In this document: positions 59,007-63,962 of the stretch, piece after piece
Numbering within the stretch: position 1 is the stretch's first letter
Layout: each line of letters starts with the position of its first letter
Origin: Erwinia aphidicola
Lineage (GTDB): Bacteria; Pseudomonadota; Gammaproteobacteria; Enterobacterales; Enterobacteriaceae
Length of the DNA stretch: 64,000 nt
Direction of reading: 5' to 3'
Assembly (NCBI RefSeq): GCF_014773485.1
Contig: NZ_JACXBP010000001.1
Location: forward strand, 248,001 to 312,000
The notes under the pieces: generated by a model
Databases searched by the model: none
What the model was told of the DNA's origin: nothing
Seen by the model: only the letters and a program-made list of their open reading frames with translations
Position numbers and translations under genes: made by a program

Positions 59007-60139
59007 TTATCAACAACGTTAAGCTAATTCTGGAAAATGAAGTCGTGGCAGGATCGCTGGCCTGCGAGAACGGCATCATCTCCGCCTTCTCCGATACGCC
59101 AAGCCAGCTGCCCTGCGCGATTGACGGCGAGGGCGGCTGGCTGATGCCGGGCATGGTCGAGCTGCATACGGATAATCTCGACAAGTTTTTTACCCCGCGC
59201 CCCAAGGTTGACTGGCCGGCGCACTCGGCGATGAGCGGCCACGACGCGCTGATTATTGCCAGCGGCATTACCACGGTGCTGGATGCGATTGGCGTGGGCG
59301 ACGTGCGCGACGGCGGCCACCGTATGGAAAATCTTAACAAGATGATCGATGCGATACGGCACAGCCAGAAGCATGGCCTGAACCGCGCCGAGCACCGCCT
59401 GCACCTGCGCTGCGAGCTGCCTCACGACTCCACGCTGCCGCTGTTCGAGCAGCTGATGTGTAACCCGGCGCTGTCGCTGGTGTCGCTGATGGACCATTCG
59501 CCGGGCCAGCGTCAGTATGTGTCACTCGACGCCTGGCGCACCTACTTTGGCGGCAAGTACCAGCTCAGCGATGCGCAGCTGGATCAGTATCAGGCCGATC
59601 AGCTGCGCCTGGCCGCCCGCTGGTCGCAGCCGAACCGTGAAGCGATCGCCGCATGGTGCCGCCAGTACCATATTCCGCTGGCCAGCCACGACGACGCGAC
59701 TGACCAACACGTGGTGGAGTCGAAAGGGGTGGGCAGTACCATCGCCGAATTCCCGACCACGGTCGAAGCGGCACGCGCTTCCCATGAGATGGGTTTGCAG
59801 GTGCTGATGGGCGCGCCGAACATCGTGCGCGGCGGCTCGCACTCCGGCAACGTCTCGGCGGCGGAACTGGCTTCCCTCGGGCTGCTGGATATTCTCTCCT
59901 CCGACTATTACCCCGGCAGCCTGCTGGATGCCGCGTTCCGCATTGCCCGCGATGAGCAGAACGGCATTGCGCTGCCTGCGGCCGTCGCGCTGGTCACGCG
60001 TAATCCGGCCCAGGCCATTGGCCTGCACGATCGCGGAGTCATCGCCGAAGGCAAGCGTGCGGATATGGTGCTGGTGCGCCAGCATCGCGAGCAGGTGTAT
60101 GTGAAAAGCGTTTGGGCGCAGGGGCGGACGGTGTTCTGA
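59003..60139 (+). CDS. phnM: Alpha-D-ribose 1-methylphosphonate 5-triphosphate diphosphatase PhnM
   Basis: 378 residues. Amidohydrolase-fold enzyme that removes pyrophosphate before the C-P lyase step. Motifs [33 protein letters not shown] and [17 protein letters not shown]. Overlaps phnN by one base. Confidence 0.96.
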
Positions 60140-60708
60140 TGGGGCGGCTGATCTGGCTGATGGGGCCATCCGGCTCCGGCAAGGACAGCCTGCTGCTGGC
60201 GCTGCGCGAGTGTGCGCCGCCGCAGGTGGTCGTGGCGCATCGCTATATTACCCGCAGCGCGACGGCAGGGGGCGAGAATCATGTCGCCCTCAGCGAGCAT
60301 GAGTTTATGCGGCGGCGCGAGTATGGTCTGTTTGCCCTCGACTGGCAGGCGCACCAGTTTTACTACGCGCTGGGTATCGAGATCGACCAGTGGCTGGCAA
60401 GCGGGCTGGACGTGGTGGTTAACGGTTCGCGGCTGCATCTGGCCGCCGCGCAGCAGCGCTACGGCGAGCGGCTGCTGGCGGTCTGTTTGCAGGTGTCGCC
60501 CAACGTGCTGGCGGCGCGGCTGCGCCTGCGCGGGCGCGAAGATGAAGCGGAGATCGCGCAGCGCCTGCGCCGGGCCGCGGAGCCGGTTGGCGCAGGCTGC
60601 CTGACGCTGAACAACGACGGTGAGCCGGGCAGGACATTGCAGGGGCTGTTATGCCTGCTGGATGGTGATAACCCTGGCCATCAGCGCTCTGGATCATCGC
60701 TGACGTAG
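60139..60708 (+). CDS. phnN: Ribose 1,5-bisphosphate phosphokinase PhnN
   Basis: 189 residues from the ATG at 60139 ([20 protein letters not shown]), matching E. coli. Makes PRPP from ribose 1,5-bisphosphate, salvaging the sugar. P-loop GPSGSGKDS. Last phn gene in view: phnO and phnP of E. coli are replaced by a converging oxidoreductase gene, which it overlaps by 28 bases. Confidence 0.94.
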
Positions 60709-62168
60709 CCGAAAAACAGATTATGCGGATCCCAGGCGGCTCTCAGTTCATTGAGCCGCTGCCACTTTTGATCGGAAAAGCAGAGCTGTGCCAGTTCCGG
60801 TGCCAGCGAGAGGTCTATTTCGTTGATGTAGTAGCCGCTGACCCAGGGCTTAACCGCGGCATTCATTTTTTTCATCAGCCGCTGGTTGGCGGCGATCGCC
60901 TGCTGGTTTTCACCAATCAGATACCATGAAACGTAGTGGGGAGCCCACCAGGTAAAACTGCAGGGTTCTGGCACGGTAGGGTTGGTATCAATGACTGAAA
61001 ATCCGAACGAGCGCGAGTCGGGCGCCTCCTGTTCCAGCAGCTGCGCGATAACCGGCAGCACTTCCTCAGGATGCTCAGTAAAAAATGCGCTTTCACTGGT
61101 GCGGCTGGTGCTGTAAGCGTCAGTGGCACCCAGCGCGTCGAATAGCTCCAGGTAGTTAAGCGTGCGGTTGTGAGTACTCTGTAATGAGCAGATCTGGGGC
61201 AATCTGCTGTGGTTAAAAATTTCAGCCACCTCAGTGGCGGAACTGAGGTTCTCGCCAAAGGAGACAACGTTCAGAACATAGTGCCAGCGCTGTTCTGCCG
61301 GGGGAGTACCAGCAGGAGAAAACTTGCCCAGAGCACCAAGAATTTCTGAACGCTGGTTATTTGCGGGTAACAGCCTCAGGATCTCTTCCAGCGCCGGACG
61401 CAACTTTTCCAGTGGAAAATAGAAGGTGTTCATCACGGCGGCCGGTGCCGGGTGTAGCTGCAGCTTATAGCGCAGCACCACGGCAAAAAAACCGGGCCCA
61501 ACGCCGCGCATCGCCCAGTATAAATCGGGATTTTCTGTCGCAGAGGTGGTGACGATACGGCCGTCTGCCAGCATCAGCTCTGCCGCCAGCACGGAGGCAC
61601 AGCCCATACCATAAGCCGGCATGTTCCAGCCCATTCCGCCCCCCAACAGGAAGCCACCCAGCGCGACAAAACCCGTGTGCGCGCCGGGGAAAACCAGCCC
61701 GTACTGAAAGGTAGCCTGATTAAGCTGCTGGCTGAACACGCCCGGACCTGCCCAGGCCGTTTTTGCCACGGCATCAATGGCGATAGCGCTGAATAATGAT
61801 AAATCGACGGTGACGGAATTATGGCGTAACGGTGCCAGAGTGATGTTGTGGCCGGAACTGCGCAGTGCAACCTGATGCCCGGACTGAGCTGCCCAGCCCA
61901 GCAGCAGCTTAAGATCGTCACTGTCCTGCGGCTGGGCGATAAGCGCGGGGAAACGCTGCGGCTTTTTACTGTACCAGGTCATTGCCCAGAACCAGCGTAA
62001 CCACTCTGGATCGGTCTGCCATACCAACACGCCTTTGAATGACTGCAGCAGCAGCGTTTTGCTCTCTCTGGCAAAGCCCGCTGCGGGGCGGATCCATCCC
62101 GGCAATATCACGCTCAATGCCGTTAACGCTTTAATCAGGCGGCGGCGCAAAAGTGAATGATTGTTCAT
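60681..62168 (-). CDS. Exported FAD-linked oxidoreductase (PCMH domain + BBE C terminus)
   Basis: 495 residues. A Tat-like signal ([20 protein letters not shown]) then a PCMH-type FAD-binding domain: His107 in [10 protein letters not shown] is the expected covalent FAD site, and [17 protein letters not shown] follows. The C terminus is BBE-like ([10 protein letters not shown]). The Cys needed for bicovalent FAD binding in berberine-bridge-type enzymes is absent (HTGFVALGG). It would act in the periplasm, donating electrons to the cytochromes encoded upstream in the same operon. Substrate unknown; an oligosaccharide, alkaloid-like amine or aromatic alcohol are options. Confidence 0.8.
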
Positions 62169-62187
62169 ACCATCCTCAGCTTAACCA

Positions 62188-62547
62188 TCAGTGATTATTA
62201 ACAGGCAACTTGCTGAAATAGTTCGCCAGCCGTTTCATATCTTCCGCAGTCAGATTTTGGCTAATGTTTTCCATCATTCCATTTTTACGGCGGCCGGCGC
62301 GAAATGCCTGGAGTTGACTCTCCAGATAAGGTGCCTTTTGGCCGGCCAGATTTGGCCATTGCGGCGACTGACTGATACCGCCGGGTCCATGGCAGCTCAT
62401 GCAACCACTGGCTTTGGCCAGCTGTTCAATCGTCCCGGCGGGGTAAGTCATATCACTGTCAGTCAGGTGGGCTTCTGCGGATAAAGTGGCGGCGGTAAGG
62501 GCGGCAAACAGCAGGCAGTTAAGCTGGCGGGTTATTCTGACTCTCAT
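62188..62547 (-). CDS. Periplasmic monoheme cytochrome c
   Basis: 119 residues. Signal peptide (NCLLFAALTAATLSAEAH), one heme site CMSCH (residues 49-53) and a Met ligand region (NGMMENISQNLT): a class I c553-like cytochrome. Sits between the FAD enzyme gene and the triheme cytochrome gene with short spacing, so it is a likely electron carrier of the same pathway. Confidence 0.88.
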   Translation of the reverse strand: MRVRITRQLNCLLFAALTAATLSAEAHLTDSDMTYPAGTIEQLAKASGCMSCHGPGGISQSPQWPNLAGQKAPYLESQLQAFRAGRRKNGMMENISQNLTAEDMKRLANYFSKLPVNNH

Positions 62548-62576
62548 AAAAGTTCCTTTTTCGCGATTATCCTGAT

Positions 62577-63962
62577 TCAGGGTTGCGCAGCGGGGAGTGG
62601 TTTACGCAATACGGATACGGCCGTTTCTGGGACCGCTGCCGACTGATTACCCCAGGATGAACGAATAAAGCTCAGTACGTCGGCAATCTGTCGGTCGTTT
62701 AATCTGCCGGCAAAACCCGGCATTGAATAATAAGGGCCGGGCGATGCGCTTGCAGGCTGAGTCGCGCCGTTCAGAACAATGCTGATTAACCCTGCCGGAT
62801 CTGCCGAGTTAACCGCAGAATTAACAGCCAGTGCGGGGAATTTTTTACGGTAGCCAAGGCCGTTAGTTAAATGACACCCTGAGCAGTTTTTTAAATAGAC
62901 TTCAGCACCCGCTTTTGACAGATCCCCACGGCTAAATGCCGTAAAAGTGCGGGTACTATAGAAAAGTTGAGGTTGTTGAACCGCGGGGGACAATGAGCGC
63001 AGATAGTCAGCCATCGCCTGAAGATCCGGCTGAGTCATATATTGGGTTGAGTGGCTCACCACATCAGACATCGGGCCAAAGGTTGCCGCGTTGTTCGTAA
63101 CGCCGGTCTTTAACAGCTCAACCAGTTCATCCCGCTGCCAGTTTCCCAGCCCGCTGCGCAGCTCTGCACGTAAAGAAGGGGCCGCATAGCCGTCAATAAC
63201 CTGCGCACCGGACAGGTAATGGCGATCGCTGTCGTCATAAGCGACTTCCTGTAAGGTGGCTGCCCGTGGTGTATGGCAGGCTCCGCAATGTCCTAATCCC
63301 TCAACATAATAGGCACCCAGTTTTACCGGATCTTCTGGCGCATTCTGTGTGACTGGCCCCGTTTTTGGTGCAAACAGCCAGCGCCACCATGTCACTGGCC
63401 AGCGCAACGATAACGGCCAGGGGATGCTATTTTTCGCGCTGGCGCAAGGCACAGCGTCAATGCCGTGGATGAAATAAGCGTAGAGCGCCTGCATATCGTG
63501 GTGGGAAATACGACGGTAAGAAGGCCAGGGCATCGCCGGGTAGAGTGTGGTGCCATCCTTGCGAATACCCTGTCTGACGGCGTTGTCAAAATCAGCATAG
63601 CTCAGGGTGCCGATGCCAAACTGTTTATCCGGGGTGATATTTGGCGGCACCATGCCGCCAATCGGTGAGGGGATAGGCGCACCACCGCTGAAAGGGGGCT
63701 TACCTGGCTGGCTATGGCAGGCTACACAGTCACCCACGCGAGCCAGATAAGCACCGCGCTGGATTAGTTCAGGCGTTGCGCTGATGGACTGCTTTACTGC
63801 AGCAGTTTGGGGGGGCGGGATGACAAGGGTGATACCCCAGGCAATAACGATCAGCGTCAATGGCAGCGCAATCGCGATCTCTTTCCAACCCATTTTATAC
63901 GAGCGGCCCTGACTGACTAATTCTCGGCGACCGGCAGTCAACATCCTGTTTTTTCTGCACAT
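62577..63962 (-). CDS. Membrane-anchored triheme cytochrome c
   Basis: 461 residues from the ATG at 63962 (MCRKNRMLTAGRRELVSQGR), with AAGGA five bases upstream; a TTG 21 bases earlier is less likely. One N-terminal membrane anchor (~residues 27-47) and three heme sites, CVACH (79-83), CGACH (226-230) and CSGCH (359-363). Resembles the cytochrome subunit of acetic-acid-bacteria alcohol dehydrogenase and gluconate 2-dehydrogenase, which passes electrons to ubiquinone. First gene of the operon as seen. Confidence 0.85.
   Translation of the reverse strand: MCRKNRMLTAGRRELVSQGRSYKMGWKEIAIALPLTLIVIAWGITLVIPPPQTAAVKQSISATPELIQRGAYLARVGDCVACHSQPGKPPFSGGAPIPSPIGGMVPPNITPDKQFGIGTLSYADFDNAVRQGIRKDGTTLYPAMPWPSYRRISHHDMQALYAYFIHGIDAVPCASAKNSIPWPLSLRWPVTWWRWLFAPKTGPVTQNAPEDPVKLGAYYVEGLGHCGACHTPRAATLQEVAYDDSDRHYLSGAQVIDGYAAPSLRAELRSGLGNWQRDELVELLKTGVTNNAATFGPMSDVVSHSTQYMTQPDLQAMADYLRSLSPAVQQPQLFYSTRTFTAFSRGDLSKAGAEVYLKNCSGCHLTNGLGYRKKFPALAVNSAVNSADPAGLISIVLNGATQPASASPGPYYSMPGFAGRLNDRQIADVLSFIRSSWGNQSAAVPETAVSVLRKPLPAAQP

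Follow-up and report, generated by a model that had tools for sequence, protein, structure and literature searches.

A putative periplasmic cytochrome-linked dehydrogenase of the EncM/BBE kind and its cytochrome partners in Erwinia aphidicola

Cytochrome-linked dehydrogenases of the vanillyl alcohol oxidase (VAO) fold, oxidase-family enzymes with a dedicated cytochrome c and triheme quinone reductases are all known already. In the berberine bridge enzyme (BBE)-like family, access of oxygen to the flavin is controlled by two gatekeeper residues at its re face; the first, two residues before the covalent Cys, is Gly in oxidases, and the second, three residues after it, is Val in oxidases as against Leu or Ile (PMC4898691, PMC4513132, PMC7312611). 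The exchange G164A lowers the oxidase activity of BBE (PMC7312611, table), the variant being 'a reticuline dehydrogenase' by the title of PDB entry 4pzf, and the exchange A113G in GALDH raises oxidase reactivity (PMC7312611, table). Attachment of flavin adenine dinucleotide (FAD) by two covalent links prevails in this family without being universal (PMC4513132, PMC4898691). Here, we present a computational analysis of a three-gene operon (positions 60681-63962) in a 64,000-nucleotide stretch of Erwinia aphidicola DNA, hereafter the window (assembly GCF_014773485.1, contig NZ_JACXBP010000001.1, positions 248,001 to 312,000 of the forward strand), which encodes an EncM/BBE-type flavoprotein together with a triheme (CYC3) and a monoheme (CYC1) cytochrome c.

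Judged by their sequences, the three genes are likely to encode a periplasmic cytochrome-linked dehydrogenase, in which the triheme cytochrome would serve as an adapter in hosts devoid of the bc1 complex and cytochrome c oxidase. The original prediction had described three genes in one direction with gaps of 20-30 bases, and this layout was recovered on the minus strand with intergenic gaps of 29 bases between CYC3 and CYC1 and 19 bases between CYC1 and the flavoprotein gene (Table 1).

Table 1 Coordinates, in positions of the window, of the operon genes, the neighbouring boundary gene and the flavoprotein residues discussed
Feature	Position	Strand	Basis or remark
CYC3, triheme membrane-anchored cytochrome c, 461 aa	62577..63962	-	Open reading frame, CxxCH motifs, Pfam, PDB match
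CYC1, monoheme cytochrome c, 119 aa	62188..62547	-	Open reading frame, CxxCH motif, Pfam, PDB match
FAD-binding oxidoreductase, 495 aa, VAO/PCMH fold, EncM/BBE-like, putative twin-arginine (TAT)-type signal	60681..62168	-	Open reading frame, Pfam, structure model
phnN, convergent; operon boundary, not member	60112..60708	+	End overlaps FAD gene end by 28 bases
H107 in RSSGHN, predicted 8alpha-histidyl FAD attachment	61848..61850	-	Aligned with EncM RGGGH motif
A163, assigned oxygen gatekeeper 1 (= EcBBE G164; GALDH A113 by literature)	61680..61682	-	Ala as in dehydrogenases
T165, second covalent link site (Cys166 in EcBBE), not Cys here	61674..61676	-	Alignment of homologs
V168, assigned oxygen gatekeeper 2 (= EcBBE V169, AtBBE-like 15 L182)	61665..61667	-	Val as in oxidases

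The flavoprotein or a close ortholog (49-99% identity) was found in 11 genomes; in all 11, the flavoprotein gene is preceded on its strand, by no more than 47 bases, by a gene for a c-type cytochrome, a conserved adjacency. Five belong to the Erwinia group (the window's genus in the genome set used, which includes Pantoea coffeiphila 1480 and Erwinia sp. JUb26), namely the window's genome, a same-species genome and three others. The remainder are Falsigemmobacter faecalis (Alphaproteobacteria), Diaphorobacter caeni (Betaproteobacteria), two further genomes of the Diaphorobacter family, a Neisseriaceae metagenome-assembled genome (MAG) whose locus ends at a contig end, and a Proteobacteria MAG. 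The adjacent cytochrome is a monoheme in the Erwinia group and in the Neisseriaceae MAG, and a diheme in the five remaining genomes. Adjacency was defined as an open reading frame (ORF) of at least 70 amino acids with a CxxCH motif, on the same strand and within 1 kb, or anywhere in the locus for loci L137 and L138; the flanks of L006, L037, L044, L048 and L137 are shorter than normal, so that a cytochrome could escape notice there, and the Falsigemmobacter locus was covered over 984 upstream bases. In the seven loci outside the Erwinia group, the only other CxxCH-bearing ORF of at least 100 amino acids is one of 143 amino acids on the opposite strand of L051, without a Pfam match.

Beyond the close clade, a distant homolog (L028/L030; 30% identity, TAT-like start) is followed directly downstream by a diheme cytochrome, and L039 and L041, homologs from another clade in which these two have no evident export signal, adjoin a cytochrome resembling one domain of the triheme, being two cytochrome-paired rows out of the six of that clade. 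Pairing with a cytochrome thus holds throughout the close clade and reappears at least twice beyond it. The claim that the flavoprotein is wired to cytochromes is thereby well supported; homologues occurring without cytochromes, which had been named as evidence against it, are absent from the close clade but common further away, as 20 of the 23 distant homologs examined have no adjacent cytochrome within the DNA covered. A weak tblastn match of L046 to the L039-type cytochrome (E 0.003) was not counted. The two pairs with a single-heme, triheme-like cytochrome (L039 406-909 and L056 2417-2914) come from two genomes of the Falsigemmobacter family, and their EncM/BBE-type flavoproteins carry the oxidase-type Gly.

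The distribution was searched with the family profile at E 1e-40 or 1e-60. Five of 37 genomes of the genus carry a close ortholog, the window's own and the same-species genome included, and no further close ortholog was encountered among 369 genomes of the class, 198 of the family and 398 of the phylum (one distant match each). The Diaphorobacter family yielded three close and two distant matches in 250 genomes, the Falsigemmobacter family one close and 11 distant in 198, and the class of the latter one close and three distant in 385. On plasmids, 279 records matched, none with 60% identity or more, and among the 40 listed none exceeded 32%.

Both cytochromes are of the kind that had been predicted, with three and one CxxCH motifs, respectively, and a match to Pfam Cytochrom_C. 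In CYC3 the motifs are at residues 79, 226 and 360, behind an N-terminal hydrophobic segment at about residues 29-48, the Pfam match has an E value of 7.2e-23, and the best PDB match is the cytochrome subunit of a quinone alcohol dehydrogenase (8gy2_B, E 1.6e-107) over residues 61-444 of 461. With three CxxCH motifs and similarity over most of its length, CYC3 is a triheme subunit of the gluconate dehydrogenase/alcohol dehydrogenase type; subunits of this kind, as in pyrroloquinoline quinone-dependent alcohol dehydrogenase (PQQ-ADH) and gluconate dehydrogenase, reduce ubiquinone (PMC9171043). CYC1 has a hydrophobic signal-like start and a CMSCH motif at residue 49, and resembles one half of cytochrome c4 (PDB match, E 3.3e-21); the diheme partners in other genera align to it over their N-terminal half. 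Since CxxCH occurs in only three of the 127 window ORFs of at least 100 amino acids, the third being holB (DNA polymerase III delta'), the four adjacent heme sites are not a matter of chance.

Seven trihemes of the CYC3 kind are encoded in the window's genome. The original prediction that such cytochromes normally partner GMC or PQQ dehydrogenases fits the kind of cytochrome that CYC3 is, but the rule proved looser than supposed, for among the six other copies four adjoin GMC enzymes, one a molybdenum enzyme and one a different FAD protein. The last of these pairs (L134 5001-8074) joins a triheme to an FAD protein of neither the GMC nor the BBE-like type (NAD_binding_8; its NCBIfam match, to PigB, is only weak), which makes it another uncommon partner.

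The triheme gene lies directly beside the flavoprotein module in 5/5 Erwinia-group genomes, and none was found in the flanks covered of the six other close orthologs and of the distant genome G252. The host respiratory chains are divided along the same line. The cytochrome b of the bc1 complex (PF00033) was matched in 0/5 genomes of the Erwinia group and in 7/7 of the others (the six close-ortholog hosts and G252). All eight COX1 matches in the five Erwinia-group genomes score over the CyoB cut-off and below that of CtaD, cytochrome bd not having been searched for, and CtaD or CcoN is over the cut-off in six of the seven bc1-bearing genomes. This comparison makes it probable that the triheme serves as a quinone adapter where the host has no route through cytochrome c oxidase. 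As the simplest reading we put forward the hypothesis that a c4-like cytochrome could not be emptied in such hosts, and that a triheme was taken on to hand the electrons of this cytochrome over to quinone. We lean, if only slightly, towards the wider view that this EncM/BBE-type family, comprising natural counterparts of the BBE G164A 'dehydrogenase', is a portable module of respiration that changes its electron outlet to suit the host chain: in the presence of bc1 and cytochrome c oxidase a c4-like cytochrome would stand alone, and in their absence a monoheme would be joined by a recruited triheme quinone reductase.

Several points weigh against the match between module and host. Triheme homologs occur elsewhere in six of the seven bc1-bearing genomes; the Neisseriaceae MAG has bc1 and a monoheme partner with no COX1 match; and 18 of the 32 COX1 matches in the 12 genomes were classified, the rest being further copies in some bc1-bearing genomes. 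As the Erwinia group is one clade and stands for one evolutionary event, not 12 tests, the match to host wiring is put forward as a hypothesis and not as a statistical result.

It could also be presumed that CYC1 and the flavoprotein alone make up the enzyme, with CYC1 donating its electrons elsewhere and CYC3 being an independent neighbour that serves another dehydrogenase. The absence of a triheme from the covered flanks of orthologs in other genera and the various partners of the six other copies in the genome would agree with such an arrangement. We nevertheless regard it as unlikely, since CYC3 lies only 29 bases upstream of CYC1 in the same direction and abuts or overlaps it in the group's three other species, no other catalytic subunit is adjacent in the Erwinia-group loci, and the five genomes show neither bc1 nor a COX1 of the cytochrome c oxidase type.

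Turning to the catalytic subunit, the flavoprotein matches FAD_binding_4 of Pfam (PF01565; E 1.7e-25, 89.8 bits against a cut-off of 26.4) and so belongs to the VAO/PCMH superfamily. The BBE C-terminal domain PF08031 was matched with 17.7 bits (E 0.0037), below the cut-off of 20.6, and was found in six of eight family members at E values no higher than 10 (lowest 0.0021). The closest solved sequences are EncM (E 2.8e-33) and next 6-hydroxy-D-nicotine oxidase. An AlphaFold model built from 7 sequences (mean predicted local distance difference test score, pLDDT, 75.9; predicted template modelling score 0.76) likewise matched EncM best, with Z of 39.0-39.4 and 439-445 residues aligned at a root-mean-square deviation of 2.5-2.6, which is near the whole mature chain, and it matched BBE enzymes generally; in Foldseek the EncM/BBE fold was matched with E 1.1e-28. 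The 60 of 84 matches listed name neither p-cresol methylhydroxylase nor eugenol hydroxylase, which by itself does not set the flavoprotein apart from their subgroup. The flavoprotein is a VAO-fold protein of the EncM/BBE kind and not a Pfam-certified BBE member. The start of the protein bears twin arginines (R8-R9, recognised by eye), consistent with a TAT signal, and the TAT-signal family PF10518 was matched in four of eight family members at E values no higher than 10 (lowest 0.0044). The predicted exported PCMH/BBE FAD oxidoreductase is therefore upheld as regards the FAD-binding domain, the EncM/BBE fold and the TAT-type start, but not as regards PF08031. A His at the position of H107 is present in all 12 exported cytochrome-linked rows of the alignment (exported proteins were recognised by visual inspection of their N-terminal residues), and, as in the family, it is predicted to hold the flavin covalently. 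To go by the aligned residues, the His of a bi-covalent FAD would be available, with Thr at the position of the Cys.

The loop around A163 aligns without gaps to EncM and also to two other homologs, and T165 of the window flavoprotein occupies the position at which other homologs have the Cys; A163 and V168 were on this account assigned to gatekeepers 1 and 2, respectively. Gatekeeper 1 is Ala in all 11 close-clade rows and in the distant exported L028, which together are the 12/12 exported cytochrome-linked rows. Over all the rows, Ala was observed in 12 of 14 linked and 4 of 20 unlinked ones (Fisher p 3e-4, which is not a fair probability as the rows are related). Rows whose loop was not alignable had been dropped (L009-L020, of GlcD, YdiJ, lactone-oxidase and similar types), as had duplicate entries for places already represented (L001-L003, L027, L029-L034, L051-L056, L059-L061 and L136). 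In the tree, where the close clade has a support of 100/100, three changes account for Ala and four for cytochrome linkage. The sequence thus points to a dehydrogenase at gatekeeper 1 and not at gatekeeper 2.

The weight of this signature is lessened by a number of observations. Gatekeeper 2 is Val, the oxidase-type residue. The four unlinked rows with Ala (some with short contexts; the other 16 have Gly) and the two linked rows without an evident export signal, L039 and L041, both of which have Gly (Ala in 0/2), do not follow the rule, and the A163 loop has a pLDDT of about 60 in the model. For the association of Ala with linkage, the tree offers only three independent pairs, too small a number for any test; on average 0.8 of these pairs had Ala together with linkage, and none ran against it.

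An ordinary periplasmic BBE-type oxidase making H2O2, whose cytochromes would remove or sense peroxide or be merely co-regulated, would be in keeping with the Val at gatekeeper 2 and with the use of O2 by EncM and 6-hydroxy-D-nicotine oxidase, the closest relatives of solved structure. Such an oxidase is nonetheless improbable, even though the plant AtBBE-like 28 with Gly/Val reacts with O2, slowly for an oxidase (PMC4898691), as gatekeeper 1 is Ala throughout the close clade, CYC1 matches electron carriers such as c4 with no peroxidase in its 16 PDB matches, and the pairing spans Alphaproteobacteria (Falsigemmobacter), Betaproteobacteria (Diaphorobacter) and the Erwinia group.

In the cytochrome-linked dehydrogenase that we favour, the folded FAD enzyme would be exported by the TAT path with its flavin held through H107, as both motifs suggest, and would oxidise a small organic substrate. 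A163 could then hinder the reaction of the reduced flavin with O2, and the electrons may leave the flavin singly to the c4-like CYC1, in line with the invariant gene pairing. CYC1 would pass them to the membrane-anchored CYC3, which, by homology with the triheme subunits of PQQ-ADH and gluconate dehydrogenase, would reduce ubiquinone, from where bo3 quinol oxidase could deliver them to O2. In the other hosts, a c4-like diheme or monoheme cytochrome alone would take up the electrons, which can presumably reach cytochrome c oxidase.

The original prediction went further in proposing an oxidase turned into a dehydrogenase, which finds no backing here, for the tree gives no direction of change and in the comparable case of NicA2/NctB it is the dehydrogenase that is ancestral (PMC12272882). 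Gain and loss of flavoprotein reactivity with O2 has been called an open issue (PMC7617285). A natural clade of the EncM/BBE fold that is always beside a cytochrome, with one gatekeeper of the dehydrogenase type and the other of the oxidase type, makes the weight of each gatekeeper measurable. If the proposed wiring is true, one dehydrogenase would fit different respiratory chains by changing its cytochrome partner alone, and the gluconate-dehydrogenase-type triheme would serve GMC, molybdenum, other FAD and EncM/BBE-type enzymes alike as a general adapter to quinone.

The operon is closed at both ends, by phnN on one side and on the other by a tenA-like gene (below the NCBIfam cut-off) that is transcribed away from it. 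A purine-rich, Shine-Dalgarno-like stretch was recognised by eye 5' of all three genes. A consensus scan of the upstream region returned no sigma-70-like site on the operon strand and two such sites on the tenA strand. The window's genome (G000) is listed with 9.67% contamination; the operon is not part of it, because the flavoprotein recurs, with 99% identity and at the corresponding genomic place, in G1430, a genome of the same species. Another FAD_binding_4 enzyme, which also has an ALO (lactone oxidase) domain, is encoded some 7 kb upstream of the operon (L029 10002-11399).

The operon stands beside phnN in 5/5 Erwinia-group genomes. A role in phosphonate metabolism was considered and rejected, because tblastn of phnI-N outside the Erwinia group, against the six other close-ortholog loci and G252, gave only weak ABC-ATPase cross-matches, in L051 alone. 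Genes for phnC, phnD and two phnE score over the NCBIfam cut-offs about 2.4 to 6.0 kb past the window end (L029 5433-9026, G000:C11). Since these genes lie beyond the operon, the tenA-like gene and another gene, the phosphonate genes of the window's genome are split by the operon.

Among the loci compared, no neighbour other than the cytochromes is common across genera, and hence no substrate is named. A class-III aminotransferase gene precedes the module in Diaphorobacter caeni only (no tblastn match in 11 other sequences), and in L024 and L051 the next gene after the module is of the FMN-dependent dehydrogenase type. In L030 (6712-10983), the distant homolog and its diheme cytochrome are located between two mesaconyl-CoA hydratase-half genes and an FAA-hydrolase gene; this neighbourhood is the most catabolic-looking one and the best lead to the substrate class. 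On the opposite strand, a few kb upstream of the module, three Diaphorobacter-family loci have a regulator gene that we read as MocR-like (L024 4087-5706, L051 4105-5550, L052 3381-4766), 24% alike between loci.

With EncM, 6-hydroxy-D-nicotine oxidase and EcBBE, the flavoprotein shares the fold over near the whole mature chain, the His of the RxxGH motif and a C-terminal BBE-like segment, and it differs from these types in its identity of about 21%, Ala for Gly at gatekeeper 1, Thr where EcBBE has Cys, its TAT-type start and its cytochrome partners. p-Cresol methylhydroxylase and eugenol hydroxylase are likewise VAO-fold flavoproteins that reduce cytochrome c and not O2, but they belong to the 4-phenol oxidising subgroup with tyrosyl-FAD (PMC7617285), whereas the window flavoprotein best matches EncM/BBE types and has c4-like and triheme partners. 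In NicA2-CycN and NctX an adjacent cytochrome c gene similarly marks an oxidase-family flavoprotein as a dehydrogenase; these enzymes, however, are of the amine-oxidase family, and the available part of the report mentions no triheme adapter (PMC12272882). FgCelDH7C (fungal AA7) and the Phl p 4 glucose dehydrogenase are natural dehydrogenases in the BBE/AA7 fold (PMC8035211; PDB titles), but FgCelDH7C gives its electrons to lytic polysaccharide monooxygenase, with no cytochrome c partner mentioned in the accessible part of that source (PMC8035211).

In the literature searches made, which covered open-licence papers and were judged by title and the beginning of the abstract, no bacterial BBE-cytochrome pair came up, nor any such combination with an EncM/BBE-type subunit. 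Gluconate, fructose and sorbitol dehydrogenases and PQQ-ADH have a triheme subunit of the same family as CYC3 (8gy2_B, E 1.6e-107), but the catalytic subunit here is VAO/BBE-type instead of GMC or PQQ, an extra monoheme c4-like cytochrome is present and the operon is without a gluconate_2-dh3-type subunit. Overall, the cytochrome wiring of this locus is not unprecedented; its unusual part is the EncM/BBE-type subunit.

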